Notes under the pieces: model-generated
What the model saw: the letters and a program-made list of their open reading frames with translations, nothing else
Told to the model about the DNA's origin: nothing
The model's database searches: none
Origin: Rhodocytophaga rosea
GTDB lineage: Bacteria > Bacteroidota > Bacteroidia > Cytophagales > 172606-1
Assembly (NCBI RefSeq): GCF_010119975.1
Contig: NZ_CP048222.1
Location: 6,920,501-6,984,500, forward strand
DNA: 64,000 nucleotides
Reading direction: 5' to 3'
Shown: piece by piece, positions 1 to 62,913 of the stretch
How positions within the stretch are numbered: the first letter of the stretch is position 1
How the letters are laid out: each line of letters opens with the position of its first letter
Made by a program: the position numbers and the translations under genes

Positions 1-1314
1 AAAGCTGGTCAGCAGATGTGGCAGGAGGGAGACGAAGCCAGATATTTTATGGCGGTGCTGGAGGGCACTTTCCAGATATACCGCATTATTAAAGGCCAGC
101 ATTTATTTATCAATACTTTTACCAAAGGGATGACCGGGGGAGAATTAGCGCTGCTGGCTGGTACGCCTCATCCTGGAAATGCAGCAGCCATTACGGATGT
201 AAAACTGCTCCTGATTGATGAAGATAATTTCTGGAAAATGCTGGCAGATTGTGAGCCTGTCCGCAAGAAGATATTACGTAACATGGCCGAACGGCTGAAG
301 GAAATTAATATTCTCTCGTTCCAGCGCGAAAAATTGCTTTCTCTGGGTACCATGGCTGCAGGACTGGCGCATGAACTCAATAATCCAGCATCAGCTGCTA
401 AACGGGCTTCGCAAAACCTGATCAAAACCATCGACGAATTTGATTTTCATTCAACAGAAGTGCTTAAATGGGTAATGTTCAAGGAACCCAACCGGGAGGG
501 ATTTCTGTTTCAACCCATCCGTGATATTATCAATACGCCAGTAAAACTCGACTCCCTCACCAGTAGCGAACATGAAGACAACCTGATCAGCTGGATGGAA
601 GAACAGGGCGTAGACGATGCCTGGGATATGGCATCTACCCTGGTTTCAGCCGGATTTACCAGCGAAAATCTATCTGATTTCACGCAGCAACTGGTACCCA
701 AATATATTCCCAGTTTTCTGCGGTGGATACACAAAGAAGTAGAAATGCGCCAGTTATCACTGGAACTGAAAGAAAGTACCAGCCGCATTTCAGATCTGGT
801 GACGGCCATTAAATCGTATTCCTACATGGACCAGAACATACAGGTTGCCCAGAAAGTAGATGTGCATGAAGGAATTAACAATACCTTACTGATTCTGAAC
901 CATAAGTTTAAAACAAAAAATATTAAGGTAATCAAAGAATATGGAGAAGGTATTCCACAGGTATCGGCTTTCGGCAGTGAACTCAACCAGGTATGGACCA
1001 ACCTGATCGATAATGCCATTGATGCCGTTCCTCAACAGGGAGGAAAGATTATTGTAAGAACTTATATAGATGACACTTGTATTGTTTCCAGAACCGTAGC
1101 CGTAGCCATTATTGACAATGGAATAGGAATTCCTAAAGAGATTCAAAATAAAATATTTGAACCTTTTTTTACAACCAAAGGCGTTGGCAAAGGTACCGGA
1201 CTAGGGCTGGAAATCGCCCACCGCATTATTGTAAACCAGCATAAAGGCGATATAGAAGTTTCCTCTGAACCCGGAAATACAATCTTTACGGTATATGTAC
1301 CCATTGATGTGTAG
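1..1314 (+). CDS. Cyclic nucleotide-binding sensor histidine kinase (5' end cut off by window)
   Basis: The reading frame is open from the first base (KAGQQMWQEG precedes the first Met at 16), so the true start lies upstream. The visible N-terminus is the second half of a cNMP-binding beta-roll (GDEARYFMAVLEGTFQIYR, then GGELALLAG), to about base 290. A HisKA-like H-box GLAHELNNPASAA follows with the phospho-His codon at 370-372, then a long helical insert containing the signature ISWMEEQGV. The HATPase_c domain shows an N-box (WTNLIDNAIDAV, near 990-1026), G1 (IIDNGIGIP, near 1110) and G2 (GKGTGLGLEI, near 1186). No membrane segment is visible, so it is probably cytosolic. It is a close paralogue of the next gene and probably signals to the receiver-flavoprotein encoded at 3376. 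The ligand is not known from sequence. Confidence 0.9.
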   Translation, partial: KAGQQMWQEGDEARYFMAVLEGTFQIYRIIKGQHLFINTFTKGMTGGELALLAGTPHPGNAAAITDVKLLLIDEDNFWKMLADCEPVRKKILRNMAERLKEINILSFQREKLLSLGTMAAGLAHELNNPASAAKRASQNLIKTIDEFDFHSTEVLKWVMFKEPNREGFLFQPIRDIINTPVKLDSLTSSEHEDNLISWMEEQGVDDAWDMASTLVSAGFTSENLSDFTQQLVPKYIPSFLRWIHKEVEMRQLSLELKESTSRISDLVTAIKSYSYMDQNIQVAQKVDVHEGINNTLLILNHKFKTKNIKVIKEYGEGIPQVSAFGSELNQVWTNLIDNAIDAVPQQGGKIIVRTYIDDTCIVSRTVAVAIIDNGIGIPKEIQNKIFEPFFTTKGVGKGTGLGLEIAHRIIVNQHKGDIEVSSEPGNTIFTVYVPIDV

Positions 1315-1315
1315 A

Positions 1316-1384
1316 TAATTACGAATTACGAATTACGAATTACGAATTACGAATTACGAATTACGAATTACGAATTACGAATTA
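1316..1384. repeat. 7-bp tandem repeat ACGAATT, about 9.5 copies
   Basis: Perfect head-to-tail copies of ACGAATT begin directly after the stop codon of the first kinase gene. They are followed by a tail, CTTTTCTTAAAAGCTTATTTG (roughly 1385-1407), that recurs after the two other AATTACG arrays at 2973 and 62768. No gene overlaps it. Confidence 0.95.
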
Positions 1385-1410
1385 ACTTTTCTTAAAAGCT
1401 TATTTGAAAA

Positions 1411-1560
1411 ATGAGTGATTGAGTGGATGAGTGATGGAGTGAGTATATCCTAAGCAGTTTACTTGTTTAACAATCCTGTCATTTAACAATTCAGCAATAA
1501 AACCATCTAATCATCCAACATTCATTCACTCAATCACTCATTCGCTCAATCACTTACTCC
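1411..1560. repeat. Inverted pair of GATTGAGTG / CACTCAATC words
   Basis: The left arm at 1411-1446 is made of variants of ATGAGTGATTGAGTGG. The right arm at 1520-1560 carries the reverse-complement words (CACTCAATCACTCATTCG). About 73 bp of AT-rich DNA lies between. The right arm ends just before the start codon of the second kinase at 1562. It resembles the other inverted word pairs in this window in architecture, not in sequence. Confidence 0.75.
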
Positions 1561-1561
1561 C

Positions 1562-2971
1562 ATGACACAGGAACTCACGCAATATTTAATAGAAGAATTA
1601 CAGGCCATTCCTACATTTAATGGGTTGCCGCAGCAACAACTGGTCTGGTTTGTAGAACATGCCAGTATCCGTCAGGTGGAGGAAGACGAAAAAGTGTTCA
1701 GAAAAGGAGAACAGGCTGATCTTATGCTCATTATTTTGAAGGGAGCAGTCCAGTTGCTGCTGGAACAAAACGGACAGGTTCTTCCCATCAGCACCATTCA
1801 TAAAGGAGATATCACCGGATTATTGCCTTACTCCCAGATGAAAGTAGCAGGTGCAACCGGAATAGCTACGCAGTCTACCAACCTGCTTATTTTTCACCGC
1901 AATGATTTTCCTGCCTTACAGGAAACATGTCCTGAACTTGTTGCCCGTTTAGTAACAGTAATGACGAGCCGTATCCGGGAGTTTACCAAAGTACAGGAAC
2001 AACGGGAGAAAATGCTTTCGCTCAGCAAACTATCTGCCGGTCTGGCTCATGAACTGAATAATCCCGCAGCCGCCATTGTCCGGACGATTGCCCAGATTCG
2101 CAAGCGGCTGGGTAAATTACCCAAGAAGGTGAAACAGTTAAGCAGACATCAATTAACAGATGAACAATTAAGCGCCATTACCAAGTTGATCGAGCGCAAA
2201 GTCAGGCAAACGGCCCTGAAATTATCCAGTTTGCAGCAAAGTGAAGCTGAGGATGAACTCATTACCTGGATGGAAGAACGGCAAATAGAAGAACCCTGGT
2301 GTCTGGCAGAAACTTTTGTAAAAACAGGTTTGCATGTGGAAGATTTGCAAGCCATTTCCCAGCAAGTGCCTGCCTCGGCCTTATCGGATGTTCTGGACTG
2401 GGTAGAAATGAGCCTGAGCAACGACTGTTTGTTGCAGGAAGTGGAAGATTCATCCTCCCGTATTTCTCAGATTGTGGATAGTGTAAAGGTATACACCCAC
2501 ATGGACCAGGCTTCTGACAGGCAATGGGTAGAACTGCATACCGGTATTGATAGTACCCTGCTCATGATGGCCCATAAACTGAGAAGTAAAAATATTGAGG
2601 TTGTGCGCCAGTATGGGGAGAATGTGCCGCCGGTACGGGGTATTGTATCTGAGCTCAACCAGCTTTGGACTAACCTGATCGATAACGCGATTGATGCCAT
2701 GTCTGTAGGAGGAAAGCTGGAAATTGTTACCTTTCATGAAGGAAAGATGACCGTAGCCAGCTTTATAGACAATGGAACTGGTATTGTCCCGGAAATACTG
2801 TCTAAAATATTTGATCCTTTCTTCACGACAAAAGAAATAGGCAAAGGCACTGGAATGGGTTTAGATATTTCTAATCGTATTGCCATGAACCACAATGCCG
2901 TTATCCGGGTAGAATCCAGACCAGGTCGAACCCAGTTTTCTGTTAACTTTCCATTAGAAATGGTAGAGTAA
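1562..2971 (+). CDS. Cyclic nucleotide-binding sensor histidine kinase (paralogue)
   Basis: A 469-residue cytosolic kinase. An N-terminal cNMP-binding beta-roll (about residues 18-135; FRKGEQADLMLIILKGAVQLL) is followed by the H-box GLAHELNNPAAAIV with phospho-acceptor His163. A roughly 200-residue helical region (ITWMEERQIEEPW) comes next, then HATPase_c with N-box (WTNLIDNAIDAM, near 373-384), G1 (FIDNGTGIV, near 400) and G2 (GKGTGMGLDI, near 426). Its domain order and signature sequences match the truncated kinase upstream, indicating tandem duplication. The start ATG sits at the end of a CACTCAATC repeat block with no Shine-Dalgarno, as is usual in Bacteroidota. The histidine and ATP-binding boxes are all present, so it should be active. 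Its likely partner is the receiver domain of the protein at 3376. Confidence 0.92.
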   Translation: MTQELTQYLIEELQAIPTFNGLPQQQLVWFVEHASIRQVEEDEKVFRKGEQADLMLIILKGAVQLLLEQNGQVLPISTIHKGDITGLLPYSQMKVAGATGIATQSTNLLIFHRNDFPALQETCPELVARLVTVMTSRIREFTKVQEQREKMLSLSKLSAGLAHELNNPAAAIVRTIAQIRKRLGKLPKKVKQLSRHQLTDEQLSAITKLIERKVRQTALKLSSLQQSEAEDELITWMEERQIEEPWCLAETFVKTGLHVEDLQAISQQVPASALSDVLDWVEMSLSNDCLLQEVEDSSSRISQIVDSVKVYTHMDQASDRQWVELHTGIDSTLLMMAHKLRSKNIEVVRQYGENVPPVRGIVSELNQLWTNLIDNAIDAMSVGGKLEIVTFHEGKMTVASFIDNGTGIVPEILSKIFDPFFTTKEIGKGTGMGLDISNRIAMNHNAVIRVESRPGRTQFSVNFPLEMVE

Positions 2972-2972
2972 T

Positions 2973-3002
2973 TACGAATTACGTTTCTTTAAAATCTTAT
3001 TT
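2973..3002. repeat. Short copy of the AATTACG element with conserved tail
   Basis: AATTACGAATTACG (two units) begins within a few bases of the second kinase's stop codon. It is followed by TTTCTTTAAAATCTTATTTG, which matches the tail behind the arrays at 1316 and 62768. It shows that the element is repeat plus tail, with variable unit number. Confidence 0.7.
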
Positions 3003-3204
3003 GATTGAGTATATGAGGTTGTGTCCATAATGACAATAATGATAATCATAGAAGTAAAGGACCTCAACAAAAAATTAATTAATATTCCATGTGCGGGAGA
3101 ATAAATGAAAAGCAGGGTGCGCGTTAGAATGAGCCAGGAAGCGTTTTTCATTTTGCCACAACTGCGTTGGCTCTCTTCGCATTTGTATGCTCAAGAGTGT
3201 TTTG

Positions 3205-3238
3205 TTACTTTTATTTTGGGCAAGCAAAATAAAAGTAA
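3205..3238. repeat. Perfect palindrome, 14-bp arms, 6-nt loop
   Basis: TTACTTTTATTTTG and CAAAATAAAAGTAA flank the loop GGCAAG. The arms are perfectly complementary. It lies between the second kinase and the receiver-flavoprotein. From general familiarity, A/T-rich TTACTTTT...AAAAGTAA palindromes recur in Bacteroidota intergenic DNA. Whether this one acts as a terminator or is a dispersed repeat cannot be decided here. Confidence 0.8.
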
Positions 3239-3375
3239 AGACGGCCTAAGTCATAAAACGCTTATTCATATTTACAGAAATGAGCCTTGACCACAACCTT
3301 ACAAAATTAAAGACTAGTAAACTACTGACGAATGAATTTCAGTGAAGCAAATTGAACAATAACTATTAACCACTT

Positions 3376-5037
3376 ATGAAACCACCTATCCTTTTTGTAA
3401 TAGATGATGATCCCCAGGTATTACGAGCCATTGAACGGGATTTAAGAAGCCGTTACCGGAGAGAATACCGGGTACTCAATGCCAGTTCGGGCGATGAAGC
3501 CCTTGAGACAGTAAAAGAATTAAAACTAAGGAACGAAGTGGTCGCTCTCTTTCTTTCCGACCAGCGAATGCCTGGCATGCTGGGCGTAGATTTTTTGCAG
3601 CAAGCCCGTACCCATTATCCGGATGCCAAACGGGTATTACTCACGGCGTATTCTGATACAAACGCTGCCATTAAAGCGATCAACGAAGTACAGTTGGATT
3701 ATTATTTGATGAAGCCCTGGGACCCTCCTGAGGAAAAACTCTATCCGGTAATTGATGGATTGCTAGAAGAATGGCAGAATAGTTACCGGCCAGAGGTACA
3801 AGGCATTCGAATTCTGGGATATCAATGGTCGCCGCAGTCGCATACGATCAAGGATTTTCTGGCTGGGAATCTGATTCCCTATACCTGGCTGGATGTAGAA
3901 ACCTCTGACAAAGCAACCAAACTCTTGGCTTTGAGTAATGCAGAACGTAAAGATTTACCGGTGGTATTTTTCGAAGATGGCAGCTATCTGGTAAAGCCTG
4001 ATCTGGCCTCACTGGGAACCAAAGTAGGCTTAAAATCCCAGGCTTCGGAAAAACTCTATGATGTGGTCATTATCGGTGCTGGTCCTGCCGGATTGGCGGC
4101 AGCGGTTTATGGAGCATCTGAAGGATTAAAAACCTTATTGATAGAAAAACGTGCTCCAGGCGGACAAGCCGGAACCAGTTCCCGGATTGAAAACTACCTG
4201 GGCTTTCACAATGGCTTAAGCGGGTCAGAACTTACTTTTCGGGCACTTACCCAGGCCACCCGTTTTGGTGCCGAAGTACTGACACCACAGGAAGTCGCCA
4301 ATATTAAACTCAAGGAACAATACAAGATATTGCAACTGGCAGATGGAACAGAGGTAAATGCCCGCAGCATTGTGCTGACCACTGGCGTAAGTTACCGCAT
4401 GCTGGGAGCCAAAGGAGAGGAGAAATATACCGGAGCTGGTGTATATTATGGAGCTGCCAATACAGAAGCCTATGCGTGCGCAGAACAGGATGTGTATATT
4501 GTAGGCGGCGGCAACTCTGCCGGACAGGCAGCCATGTACTTATCTAAATATGCCCGGAGTGTGCATATCCTGGTGCGGAAGCCGGATTTAACCGCTACAA
4601 TGTCGCAGTACCTGATCGACCAGATTGCTGCTACCAAAAATATTGCGGTATGTGGCAAAACTGTTGTAACCGAAATGAGAGGAGAAGGCCGTCTGGAAGA
4701 AATTACCATTCAAAACATAGAAACAGGCCAGACAGAAGTAGCCAAAACCCAATCAGTGTTTATCTTTATAGGCGCCAAACCTTGTACCGACTGGATGCAA
4801 CTCGATATTCTGCGGAATGATAAAGGCTACATAGAAACTGGCCGGGAACTACTCCGTTTTGATAACTTCAAGAAAAAATGGAAACTTGAACGGGAACCGT
4901 ATTTACTGGAATCGAGCATGCCAGGTATTTTTGCCGCCGGCGATGTACGCGCCGGAGCCATGAACCGGATTGCTTCTGCTGTAGGAGAAGGCGCTATGGC
5001 CATCAAGTTTGTGCATGAATACCTCGCAGAGCCGTAA
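3376..5037 (+). CDS. Fused response regulator / thioredoxin-reductase-like flavoprotein
   Basis: A 553-residue three-part fusion. Residues 1-130 are a receiver domain with acidic pocket D10-D12, phospho-acceptor D62 (FLSDQRMPG), T90 and K113 (MKPWDPP). Residues about 143-222 are a thioredoxin/glutaredoxin-like fold (IRILGYQWSPQS...LPVVFFEDGS) in which WSPQS occupies the usual CxxC position. Residues about 228-553 are a FAD/NAD(P) reductase with GAGPAGLAAAVYGA, the NADPH motif VGGGNSAGQAAMYLS and the C-terminal FAD motif FAAGDVRAGAMNR. The region that holds CATC in true thioredoxin reductases reads YYGAANTEAYACAEQ, with no CxxC. The flavoprotein is therefore unlikely to reduce thioredoxin in the classical way. 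Following two cNMP kinases, it is probably their phosphorylation target, linking a nucleotide or redox signal to an enzymatic output. Confidence 0.9.
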   Translation: MKPPILFVIDDDPQVLRAIERDLRSRYRREYRVLNASSGDEALETVKELKLRNEVVALFLSDQRMPGMLGVDFLQQARTHYPDAKRVLLTAYSDTNAAIKAINEVQLDYYLMKPWDPPEEKLYPVIDGLLEEWQNSYRPEVQGIRILGYQWSPQSHTIKDFLAGNLIPYTWLDVETSDKATKLLALSNAERKDLPVVFFEDGSYLVKPDLASLGTKVGLKSQASEKLYDVVIIGAGPAGLAAAVYGASEGLKTLLIEKRAPGGQAGTSSRIENYLGFHNGLSGSELTFRALTQATRFGAEVLTPQEVANIKLKEQYKILQLADGTEVNARSIVLTTGVSYRMLGAKGEEKYTGAGVYYGAANTEAYACAEQDVYIVGGGNSAGQAAMYLSKYARSVHILVRKPDLTATMSQYLIDQIAATKNIAVCGKTVVTEMRGEGRLEEITIQNIETGQTEVAKTQSVFIFIGAKPCTDWMQLDILRNDKGYIETGRELLRFDNFKKKWKLEREPYLLESSMPGIFAAGDVRAGAMNRIASAVGEGAMAIKFVHEYLAEP

Positions 5038-5140
5038 TCCAAGAGTATTGGTTATGTTGCACCATATTTTAGGCTTTAGGCATAATGAAACGCTAAGTAT
5101 GCTACCTAACAAAGATATTGTAATTTAACTATAAACAGCC

Positions 5141-5389
5141 ATGAAAACCTTTATAAATCGATTTAATCAAATTATGGCTAGCAGCCCTGAAATGATTATG
5201 AATACTAAAGAATACGAGCAAAATGTAAAAAATATCAAGGCAGAAATCACCCTGAAATATTCCCAAATGATTAGGCAGGAAAAGAATGCTTTTAAAAGAG
5301 TACTGCTAAAAATTAAAAAGAGAAGCGAAATAAAGAAAGTTATCAAACAGTTAACTTCTCTCGATAAACTTTATTTAGTTGCGGAATAG
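5141..5389 (+). CDS. Small hypothetical protein, lysine-rich and helical
   Basis: An 82-residue protein (pI clearly basic) beginning MKTFINRFNQIMASSPEM. It has a predominantly helical composition and a Lys/Arg cluster in the middle (KRVLLKIKKRSEIKK). It has no signal peptide, membrane segment or family I recognise. It stands alone between the receiver-flavoprotein and the DUF4178 genes, in the same direction. Composition and codon use look coding, but its size makes the call moderate. Confidence 0.55.
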   Translation: MKTFINRFNQIMASSPEMIMNTKEYEQNVKNIKAEITLKYSQMIRQEKNAFKRVLLKIKKRSEIKKVIKQLTSLDKLYLVAE

Positions 5390-5517
5390 CTTATAAATAT
5401 AATAACTAAGACTAACTCTTGCTTCGACTGAACGCCTTCATGCTACATCAAAGTGGTGTTATAGTAGGAACGATGCAGGAAAACTATTCCATTTACCAAA
5501 AAGCGTACTATCGTTAT

Positions 5518-6132
5518 ATGTCATTTCAAACACTGAATTGTCCTTCTTGTGGTGCTGAACTGGAACTGCAGTACCGGCATTCCAAAATGGTGGTGTGTAA
5601 ATACTGCGGACAAACCAGTTATATTAATGCAGGTCTGGCTGACCCGACAGGAGAGAAAATTTTACTGGCCGATTATGGTTCTTTATTATCCGTGGGGAAG
5701 CGGGGGAAACTGAAAGGCAAAACCTTTCAGGTGCTAGGCCGGTTGCGGTTCGATTATGAAGATGGCTTCTGGGATGAATGGCTCATCTGGTTTGATGGGC
5801 AGGAGTATACTGATTTCTGGCTGCAGGAAGATGAAGGAGAATTTACCCTATTCACCAAAAAAGAATTATCATACAGAGTTCCGGAATTTGACAAGGTAAA
5901 AGTAGCTAACCAGATGGCCATAAACGGACAGGGTGTATTTGTGACTGAAAAGAACCGGGCTACTATTAATGGTGGTGAAGGCGAACTGTCTTTTCAGGTA
6001 ATGCCCGGAGAACAGGCCGATTTTATTGATGGCATTCTGGAAGGAAAACCAGTAAGTCTGGAATATATGCCTGGAGAAACGGTGTTTAATATCGGAGAAA
6101 CTGTAGCCCTCACGGATTTTCAATGGCTATAA
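5518..6132 (+). CDS. Zinc-ribbon DUF4178 domain protein
   Basis: About 204 residues from the chosen ATG (MSFQTLNCPSCG). In-frame starts exist upstream at 5473 (ATG) and 5419 (TTG), but the sequence before 5518 shows no domain character. The N-terminus is a zinc ribbon (CPSCGAELE, then CKYCGQT about 20 residues later). The rest fits DUF4178, with the hallmark patterns LKGKTFQVLGRLRF, DEWLIWF and FWLQEDEGEF. No membrane segment is present. It is followed after an 8-bp repeat array by a second, longer DUF4178 gene. By gene-neighbourhood knowledge, DUF4178 proteins often sit with membrane aminopropyltransferases and DUF350 proteins, as encoded here at 32-34 kb. The biochemical role is unknown. 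Confidence 0.85.
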   Translation: MSFQTLNCPSCGAELELQYRHSKMVVCKYCGQTSYINAGLADPTGEKILLADYGSLLSVGKRGKLKGKTFQVLGRLRFDYEDGFWDEWLIWFDGQEYTDFWLQEDEGEFTLFTKKELSYRVPEFDKVKVANQMAINGQGVFVTEKNRATINGGEGELSFQVMPGEQADFIDGILEGKPVSLEYMPGETVFNIGETVALTDFQWL

Positions 6133-6190
6133 TATAAAATTGTAGAATTACAGGATTACAGAAGGTCAGAATAATAAATAAATTATTATA

Positions 6191-6278
6191 ATTCAGTAAT
6201 TCAGTAATTCAGTAATTCAGTAATTCAGTAATTCAGTAATTCAGTAATTCAGTAATTCAGTAATTCAGTAATTCAGTA
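6191..6278. repeat. 8-bp tandem repeat ATTCAGTA, 11 copies
   Basis: Eleven perfect head-to-tail ATTCAGTA units lie between the two DUF4178 genes, ending 23 bp before the ATG at 6302. The flank at 6146-6175 contains ATTACAGGATTACAGAA, a word also seen near 10735 and 15510. Being noncoding, the array can vary in length without breaking a gene, but it could alter spacing or expression of the downstream gene. Confidence 0.95.
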
Positions 6279-6301
6279 TTTTTTCCATGTACTAACAAAC
6301 C

Positions 6302-7675
6302 ATGAGTGCTATTCAGCCGCAAGCCTATTTTAAATCTATCCGGCAGTTTAAATGCAGTAATTGTGCCGGTGAAATCTCGCTGATCAATAAGCGGACAAGG
6401 TATGTGGCCTGCCAGTATTGTGGTACCGTACAGGATGCCCAGTCAGAGGCGCACCAGATTATTACCAGATTAAATGCTCCTTCCCAGTTTCCGCCTAAGT
6501 CTTTTATAAAGCTGGAGATGAAAGCAGTATTTTCCGGCAAAAATTATCAGGTACTGGGCAGGACCAGGTGGCGTTCCAAATATAAGGAATACTGGTCGGA
6601 GGAAGGCGAAACCGGCTATTCGGATGAAACCTGGGAATACGATGAATGGGTGTTGATGGGAGAGGATTTTACCTATTTCTACCTGATCGAAGATTCTGAT
6701 GGATACGCTGTTTCCCAGTCTGTTTTTCCTAAGTATCCTACGCTGCCGAAAGGAACGTCGATGATGAATTTTTTAGCTGGCAAACAGGAAAGGGTGGTAG
6801 AATATGGAGAATCGAAAGTGCTGTATTTCGAAGGAGAGTCTACTTATCAGATCAAGGCTGGCGACAAGGTGCAGTTCTCGCAGTATAATTCAGGCCGGTA
6901 TAGTTATATTACAGAATGGCGGTTAAGGGAAGATGGAAAAGAGATTAAGGAAATTGAGTTTTTCCAGGAAGAGCCTTTTACTTACAAAGAAATATTAGCT
7001 GCTTTTGCCAATGATCCGGCAATTGCCCAGCTGAAACAGCAACTGGAAAAACGCAGCCGCAGCAGAATTTTCTGGCGGATTTCCTTCTGGCTTACGGCTA
7101 TTGTATTTCTGGTATTACTGATTGGTTCAGCCGGAGAAGGGGAACAGGTATTTACGGCTACCTATCCAGTGCCGGTTGTCAGTCAGACTGGCGCTTCTGA
7201 CGACGATGATCCGGAGGTGGTGGCTACTACCAAACCTATGCCCTTGCAGAAAGTGAACCGGGTGTATGAAGTTAAATTATCAGCCACTATGCCGGATAAC
7301 TCTGATGTTTGGACCGGTCTGGAAATTCTGAATGAGAAAGGAGAAGTGATCAATGCCATTGAAGGTGATTTTTTCCGTGCTTCCGGAGAAGAAGCCTGGT
7401 ATGAAGATGGAGAAAGTGGGGTAGAACACTGGGAAGAAAATGAAACCTCGCATACGGCAGTATACCGCCTGGATGAACCTGGAACATATTCTGCCAGGAT
7501 ATTTGCCATGCCGACCAAAATTCCGGATGCCACCGTTAAGCTGGAAGTATATGAAGGAAGTACATTAAGCCGCTATTATCTGATCGGTTTTCTGCTATTT
7601 ACCTTGCTGGCTATTGTAAGTAGCGTTTCTGCATCTATGGCAAAAGCCGTGTATAAAAAGTTGCAGAATAAATAA
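6302..7675 (+). CDS. Membrane-anchored zinc-ribbon DUF4178 protein
   Basis: A 457-residue protein. An N-terminal zinc ribbon (CSNCAGE at about 18-24; CQYCGTV at about 37-43) precedes a DUF4178-like region (FSGKNYQVLGRTRW at about 78-91; YDEWVLMGEDFTYFYLIED). A basic linker (EKRSRSRIFWR) leads into a first membrane segment at about 260-280 (ISFWLTAIVFLVLLIGSAG). A domain of about 150 residues, acidic and rich in beta-type sequence, lies between it and a second membrane segment near the C-terminus (YYLIGFLLFTLLAIVSSV). By topology the N-terminal half is probably cytoplasmic and the loop periplasmic. It is probably co-expressed with the smaller DUF4178 gene upstream. Confidence 0.85.
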   Translation: MSAIQPQAYFKSIRQFKCSNCAGEISLINKRTRYVACQYCGTVQDAQSEAHQIITRLNAPSQFPPKSFIKLEMKAVFSGKNYQVLGRTRWRSKYKEYWSEEGETGYSDETWEYDEWVLMGEDFTYFYLIEDSDGYAVSQSVFPKYPTLPKGTSMMNFLAGKQERVVEYGESKVLYFEGESTYQIKAGDKVQFSQYNSGRYSYITEWRLREDGKEIKEIEFFQEEPFTYKEILAAFANDPAIAQLKQQLEKRSRSRIFWRISFWLTAIVFLVLLIGSAGEGEQVFTATYPVPVVSQTGASDDDDPEVVATTKPMPLQKVNRVYEVKLSATMPDNSDVWTGLEILNEKGEVINAIEGDFFRASGEEAWYEDGESGVEHWEENETSHTAVYRLDEPGTYSARIFAMPTKIPDATVKLEVYEGSTLSRYYLIGFLLFTLLAIVSSVSASMAKAVYKKLQNK

Positions 7676-62767: not shown

Positions 62768-62913
62768 AATTACGAATTACGAATTACGAATTACGAATTA
62801 CGAATTACGAATTACGAATTACGAATTACGAATTACGAATTACGAATTACGAATTACGAATTACGAATTACGAATTACGAATTACGAATTACGAATTACG
62901 AATTACGAATTAC
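62768..62913. repeat. 7-bp tandem repeat AATTACG, about 20 copies, with shared tail
   Basis: Twenty perfect ACGAATT units (62772-62911) follow the TIM-barrel stop codon within a few bases. The tail ATTCCTTTAAAAGCTTATTC (62914-62933) matches those after the arrays at 1316 and 2973. This is the longest of the three. Confidence 0.95.

Follow-up and report, generated by a model that had tools for sequence, protein, structure and literature searches.

Most response regulators terminate in a DNA-binding or second-messenger domain. The locus described here comprises three genes at the beginning of a 64,000-nucleotide stretch of the Rhodocytophaga rosea genome (NCBI RefSeq assembly GCF_010119975.1, contig NZ_CP048222.1, positions 6,920,501 to 6,984,500 of the forward strand; the whole stretch is termed the window). 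They encode two histidine kinases with a cyclic nucleotide monophosphate (cNMP)-binding fold, termed HK1 and HK2, and a flavoprotein, termed FP, in which a receiver domain is fused to thioredoxin (Trx)-like and thioredoxin reductase (TrxR)-like parts, so that phosphorylation would act straight on a flavoprotein. The favoured reading, to which a probability of about 0.6 is assigned, is that the three proteins make up a two-component system of the cytoplasm, with a phosphorylation-gated redox switch, based on reduced nicotinamide adenine dinucleotide (phosphate) (NAD(P)H) and flavin, as its output; the switch would act by protein contact. The genes are arranged as follows.

1 to 1314, + strand: HK1, cNMP-fold histidine kinase of 477 amino acids; the gene starts 120 bases upstream of the window
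1562 to 2971, + strand: HK2, cNMP-fold histidine kinase of 469 amino acids, the conserved partner type in Bacteroidota
3376 to 5037, + strand: FP, receiver/Trx-like/TrxR-like flavoprotein of 553 amino acids

The gaps are 247 bases between HK1 and HK2 and 404 bases between HK2 and FP. The start codon of HK1 is a TTG at G000:C1:6920381 (G000 being the window genome), and the next in-frame ATG is codon 7.

Described systems that resemble the locus

Burroughs, Iyer and Aravind reportedly described, in 2011, a ZF-UBP 'cyclic nucleotide-dependent redox signaling system' that fits this gene set. Such a system is said to combine a cNMP-domain signalling protein, a TrxR-like flavoprotein and a ZF-UBP protein in conserved neighbourhoods, and neighbourhoods of this kind were met among the relatives of FP. 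The window locus differs in that its ZF-UBP gene is distant, its two kinases belong to different clades and cyclic-nucleotide contacts are missing. The 2011 article is cited in PMC4506424. Moreover, receiver-thioredoxin reductase fusions have been catalogued as response regulators (PMC5847659) and FP is the same fusion; a preliminary description of this locus, made from the sequence alone, had rightly stated that such fused proteins are known. The window system is thus a member of a known, little-studied kind.

Proteins named 'cyclic nucleotide-binding domain-containing thioredoxin-disulfide reductase' by NCBI share the Trx-TrxR core of FP behind a different N-terminal domain. The name 'thioredoxin-disulfide reductase' implies disulfide reduction, and is misleading for the FP family, in which both CxxC sites are empty in all compared members. 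ATII-TrxR, from the Atlantis II brine pool, resembles FP in its described domain content, having a TrxR-like domain, NAD(P)H dependence and a length of ∼ 550 residues; unlike FP, it carries a cNMP-fold domain and no receiver, and the purified protein reportedly oxidises both NADPH and NADH and reduces thioredoxin and 5,5'-dithiobis-(2-nitrobenzoic acid) (DTNB) (PMC6544261).

FP has the same flavin adenine dinucleotide (FAD) and NAD(P)H domains as TrxB and AhpF, with 30–34% identity to solved thioredoxin reductases, but it lacks CxxC, has a receiver in front and scores below the curated cut-offs (239.2 versus 343.45 bits for TIGR01292, 160 versus 503 for TIGR03140). DDOR and FFTR are likewise divergent TrxR relatives with changed electron flow, but there it is the NADPH motif that is lost and CxxC that is retained (PMC9025218), the opposite of the pattern in FP. 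What goes beyond the articles cited above by PMC number is the family-wide absence of both CxxC sites, the missing cyclic-nucleotide contacts, the perfect co-occurrence of kinase and flavoprotein, and the recurrent two-kinase layout.

The flavoprotein keeps its cofactor motifs and lacks both CxxC sites

The following features were located in FP.

3394 to 3729, + strand: receiver domain, residues 7-118 (PF00072)
3559 to 3561, + strand: codon of the phospho-acceptor D62, invariant in 52 sequences
3802 to 4035, + strand: Trx/glutaredoxin-like domain, residues 143-220 (2lqo match; structural model)
3826 to 3840, + strand: WSPQS at the CxxC position of the Trx-like domain, residues 151-155
4057 to 5028, + strand: TrxR-like FAD/NAD(P)H domains, residues 228-551 (PF07992; PDB sequence and fold matches)
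4075 to 4092, + strand: FAD motif GAGPAG
4444 to 4473, + strand: YYGAANTEAY at the TrxR CATC/CAVC site, residues 357-366
4504 to 4524, + strand: NAD(P)H motif GGGNSAG

Pfam identifies Response_reg (PF00072, 62.7 bits) and Pyr_redox_2 (PF07992), and the C-terminal part of FP matches PDB thioredoxin reductases both by sequence and by fold. Receiver residues D10, D11, D62, T90 and K113 are invariant in the 52-sequence family alignment, and the fusion with an intact D62 that the preliminary description had set out is thereby borne out. The middle part gives a weak match to the mycoredoxin-type structure 2lqo (Rv3198.1; E 6.6e-4); P195, at the cis-proline position, is invariant, and the order of strands and helices in an AlphaFold2 model of FP (mean pLDDT, the predicted local distance difference score, 86.7, but below 50 for the conserved stretch 264-279) fits a Trx/glutaredoxin fold. 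Residues 224-552 (window 4045-5031) also match PHROGs family 6397 with 242 bits; that family is labelled as a ribonucleotide reductase large subunit, a label that looks wrong unless the family includes fusions.

Replacement of both CxxC sites had been read from the window sequence, and it holds in an alignment in which the window genome's ordinary TrxR, as a positive control, displays CAVC. In FP the FAD GxGxxG and NAD(P)H GxGxxA/G motifs of thioredoxin reductases are present, and the TrxR CxxC and the Trx CxxC/CxxS are not. The preliminary description had not seen that this is a property of the whole family. FP was compared with 78 relatives from Bacteroidota and allied groups (61–76% identical over the full length), and CxxC was found nowhere in any of the 79 sequences; the Trx site mostly reads [WFY]SPxSH and the TrxR site G[VI]YYGA[AS]xTEA. 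Neither site carries the motif in the receiver forms of Nostoc, Gloeothece, Streptomyces, Tsukamurella, Nocardia, Nonomuraea, Caballeronia and Deinococcus.

The same core, again with both sites empty, was found in other phyla in forms where a cNMP-fold domain replaces the receiver and in bare forms with no N-terminal domain, neither of which had been mentioned earlier. The sole CxxC among the other-phylum members is at residue 426 of a Deinococcus cNMP form, away from the active site. Despite the loss of these cysteines, the family retains its FAD and NAD(P)H motifs. Local decay as the origin of the CxxC loss is ruled out by its family-wide extent. In a tree of the core, whose deep branches are weakly supported, the bare form makes up one group, whereas receiver and cNMP forms do not sort into clearly distinct groups.

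A kinase gene accompanies the flavoprotein gene across phyla

The preliminary description had made its proposal depend on linkage between kinase and flavoprotein genes, and such linkage is strong. A kinase was present in the fetched DNA at 74 of the 78 loci with a full-length FP, lying directly upstream on the same strand in 73, with a median gap of 35 bases. Among 296 genomes of the wider phylum, with scoring limited to the few top candidates of each genome at thresholds of 1e-80 (FP) and 1e-60 (kinase), receiver-type FP and HK2-type kinase occurred in an identical set of 41 genomes, and were adjacent in 35 of these. Beyond this phylum, a kinase lay close by at 10/10 plasmid-borne receiver-type FP loci examined. 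The maintenance of the kinase-flavoprotein pair across many bacterial phyla indicates a real signalling module, and the conservation of the same features in tens of loci shows that the anatomy of HK1, HK2 and FP is not due to chance. Since the disulfide motifs are lost, while the FAD/NAD(P)H sites and the kinase partner are constant across phyla, the reaction and output of FP become a concrete question.

The kinases are unlikely to respond to cyclic nucleotides

The features of the two kinases are as follows.

1 to 246, + strand: HK1 cNMP-fold domain, cut by the window edge; phosphate-cassette arginine missing (GELALLAGTPHPGNAA) (PF00027; alignment)
370 to 372, + strand: codon of the HK1 phospho-acceptor His (HELNN), from the sequence
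979 to 1305, + strand: HK1 HATPase_c domain (N, G1, F and G2 boxes)
1670 to 1921, + strand: HK2 cNMP-fold domain, with GLLPYSQM in place of the cassette (family GxLP[YF]SR)
2048 to 2050, + strand: codon of the HK2 phospho-acceptor H163, invariant in the alignment
2159 to 2365, + strand: HK2 helical insertion between the two helices of the dimerization and histidine phosphotransfer (DHp) region, residues 200-268 (AlphaFold2 model)
2648 to 2959, + strand: HK2 HATPase_c domain (Pfam)

Both kinases combine a PF00027 cNMP-fold domain (56.7 and 41.1 bits; cut-off 27.5) with HATPase_c. The His, N, G1 and G2 boxes that had been listed for the two paralogues are all there, together with an F-box, the H-box reading HELNN and the N-box NLIDNAIDA. 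Pfam HisKA is below its cut-off in HK2 (16.9 versus 26.9 bits) and gives no match in HK1. In the AlphaFold2 model of HK2 (mean pLDDT 88.4) two long DHp helices are seen, and an additional block of helix interrupts their hairpin.

The inputs had been proposed to be cyclic-nucleotide-like ligands. However, in the alignment neither HK1 nor HK2 has an arginine at the position of CRP R82: HK1 retains GELALL without the arginine, HK2-type kinases carry GxLP[YF]SR instead, and the cNMP-fused FPs likewise have no phosphate-binding arginine. Because this residue is missing in both kinases, cyclic-nucleotide ligands are unsupported, and the sequences make ligands other than cAMP or cGMP more likely. Relatives with a cNMP fold, such as CooA, FNR and PrfA, respond to a heme-bound gas, an Fe-S cluster and glutathione.

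A ZF-UBP protein as the likely next partner

A third partner, overlooked in the preliminary description, is a ZF-UBP protein of ∼ 90 residues. Its gene is near FP in 49 of the 78 loci and immediately downstream in 47, and it occurs in 28/45 genomes with FP as against 3/251 without. In Streptomyces and Tsukamurella the FP, kinase and ZF-UBP genes overlap by 4 bases. In four relatives ZF-UBP forms the C-terminus of a Na_H_Exchanger/TrkA_N (Kef-like) antiporter, which in three of them is encoded within the FP/kinase cluster.

L135:7575-9602, L136:3267-5315, L137:5971-8100 and L138:8668-10701: antiporter-ZF-UBP fusions

On Rhodococcus and Streptomyces plasmids (L186 and L187) the cNMP-fused cysteine-less form follows dnaK-grpE-dnaJ-cbpM-clpB-trxA-UBP. 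These antiporter and chaperone contexts, also new with respect to the earlier account, offer testable outputs. Bestrophin channel genes adjoin FP in several loci, including that of Nostoc edaphicum.

Pairs of EgtB-like and EgtD-like (ergothioneine-type) genes, named from their sequences alone, lie near FP in 16 of the loci L011-L090 (for example L031:10726-11916 and L013:5574-6542).

Proposed mechanism and alternative explanations

In the proposed mechanism the signal, a ligand or a partner that is probably neither cAMP nor cGMP, would be sensed by the cNMP-fold domains of the kinases. Each kinase would then autophosphorylate its H-box His and pass the phosphate to D62 of FP; 'phosphorelay', the term used previously, is better replaced by one-step phosphotransfer. 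The kinases carry an ExxN motif, and for this reason they probably also dephosphorylate the receiver. Phosphorylation of D62 may rearrange the Trx-like and TrxR-like parts, or affect their binding of partners or the reactivity of the flavin. FP is predicted to bind FAD and NAD(P)H, while the internal disulfide step of thioredoxin reductase would be impossible, so that a phosphorylation-gated NAD(P)H/flavin redox switch is its most likely role. The contact partner would most often be the small ZF-UBP zinc-finger protein.

Several observations weigh against this interpretation. No biochemistry was found for any receiver-type member, and the reported activity of ATII-TrxR favours an enzyme over a pure switch (PMC6544261). 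The related genomes are not independent, which inflates the co-occurrence p-value, yet 19 families are represented. A ZF-UBP match is lacking in 17 of the 45 genomes with FP. Moreover, in the window genome ZF-UBP is not adjacent: the only copy (L107:1438-1710; G000:C1:2594761) is 4.3 Mb away, next to a transposase-like open reading frame (ORF). It has probably moved, since ZF-UBP adjoins FP in the same-family genomes G005 and G006.

An enzymatic output is a strong rival. FP could oxidise NAD(P)H and pass the electrons to a different acceptor (quinone, O2, ferredoxin, a metal, or thioredoxin via some unusual route), with phosphorylation switching the enzyme on or off, a possibility that we regard as real, if on balance unlikely. 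TrxR-like ferredoxin-NADP reductases are TrxR-like proteins that lack CxxC and use other acceptors; FP has weak PDB matches to them, and its FAD and NAD(P)H motifs are invariant. The reported activity of ATII-TrxR with both NADPH and NADH (PMC6544261) points the same way. However, the receiver form has no acceptor gene as a consistent neighbour, the cysteine-less Trx-like part is always retained, and the usual partner is a zinc-finger protein and not a carrier.

A second alternative concerns the kinases. The preliminary description had envisaged two kinases feeding one enzyme. This is plausible as an arrangement: the congeneric G004 has the same HK1-HK2-FP tandem (HK1 78% and FP 82% identical), and two kinases around one FP were also found in Caballeronia, Paraburkholderia and Deinococcus aetherius. 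Equal feeding is contested, since one kinase might instead be a phosphatase, an antagonist or a hetero-dimer partner, or might serve another receiver. HK1 and HK2 are 37% identical and hence old paralogues, not a recent duplicate; recent tandem duplication is also ruled out by the kinase tree. In this tree HK2 lies among other Bacteroidota kinases, whereas HK1 clusters with those of two distant families (93/96), within a larger clade that also holds the FP partner kinases of cyanobacteria, actinobacteria and proteobacteria. This placement suggests that HK1 is an old paralogue, possibly acquired from outside.

In a second genus the two kinases stand in tandem in G001 and G002; the contig that carries them in G001 is not the one with FP, and the incomplete G002 yielded no FP. 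A third genus (G005 and G006) has a single kinase with FP, that of G005 being very near the kinase of Xanthocytophaga flavus (Rhodocytophagaceae, L023) in the tree, a position that assigns the window genome to Rhodocytophagaceae. Outside this lineage FP is usually paired with one kinase. The paired kinases are sister groups in Burkholderiales but not in Deinococcus, and these differing tree positions indicate that the two-kinase layout arose more than once. The separate clade of HK1, the split locus of G001 and the usual single kinase would all suit unequal roles. Against this, an HK1-type kinase is the sole FP partner in L136, L148, cyanobacteria and actinobacteria, and all catalytic boxes are intact, so unequal feeding is considered possible but rather doubtful.

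It is very unlikely that FP is a thiol enzyme working with the single C368, in the manner of one-cysteine disulfide reductases. Among the 79 close relatives, 70 have a cysteine at this position (TEAxAC), as do many members from other phyla, but the residue is F or V in the remaining 9 and V, T or Y elsewhere, including receiver forms of Deinococcus and of L149 and L150; it is also located after, and not at, the flavin-facing site. Finally, it is hardly credible that the kinases lie next to FP by coincidence and that its receiver is phosphorylated by others among the more than 80 further stretches of the genome that match the kinase ATPase domain, given the identical occurrence sets and the adjacency over many phyla.

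The switch reading can be extended, tentatively and with the whole extension being unlikely to hold in every part, to a pan-bacterial family in which a TrxR fold without disulfide chemistry would serve as a phosphorylation-gated NAD(P)H redox switch on ion antiporters and chaperones via a ZF-UBP adaptor, controlled by cNMP-fold kinases with a non-cyclic-nucleotide ligand, a second kinase having been recruited more than once.

Other features of the window

Upstream of HK1, genes for Bestrophin, carbonic anhydrase and Dps are found in equal order in the window genome (L009:10095-13643) and in G004 (L128:5238-8000); in the former a transposase-like ORF separates Dps from HK1. Beyond FP, window positions 5419-7675 contain adjoining ORFs of 237 and 457 amino acids, each with N-terminal CxxC zinc-ribbon-like motifs, the longer one also having hydrophobic segments. 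A perfect octamer array (TAATTCAG) of 11.2 copies at 6189-6278 is flanked by two zinc-ribbon protein genes.

Searches of the window with Rfam and PADLOC returned no match and no defence match, respectively, and other PHROGs matches were to general receiver, kinase and reductase families only. Neither a sigma-70 promoter and terminator scan of positions 1-6200 nor a Bacteroidetes-type promoter pattern across the window gave an excess over shuffled sequences. A perfect heptamer array lies between the two kinase genes.

1317 to 1384, + strand: perfect heptamer array (AATTACG)9.7

A second perfect array of this heptamer, with 20.9 copies, is at 62768-62913 of the window. In the genome (AATTACG) arrays occur at about a dozen places, a reversed control giving none; they are in forward orientation from 6.35 to 7.87 Mb, and in reverse orientation from 0.85 to 2.02 Mb and at 7.94 Mb.

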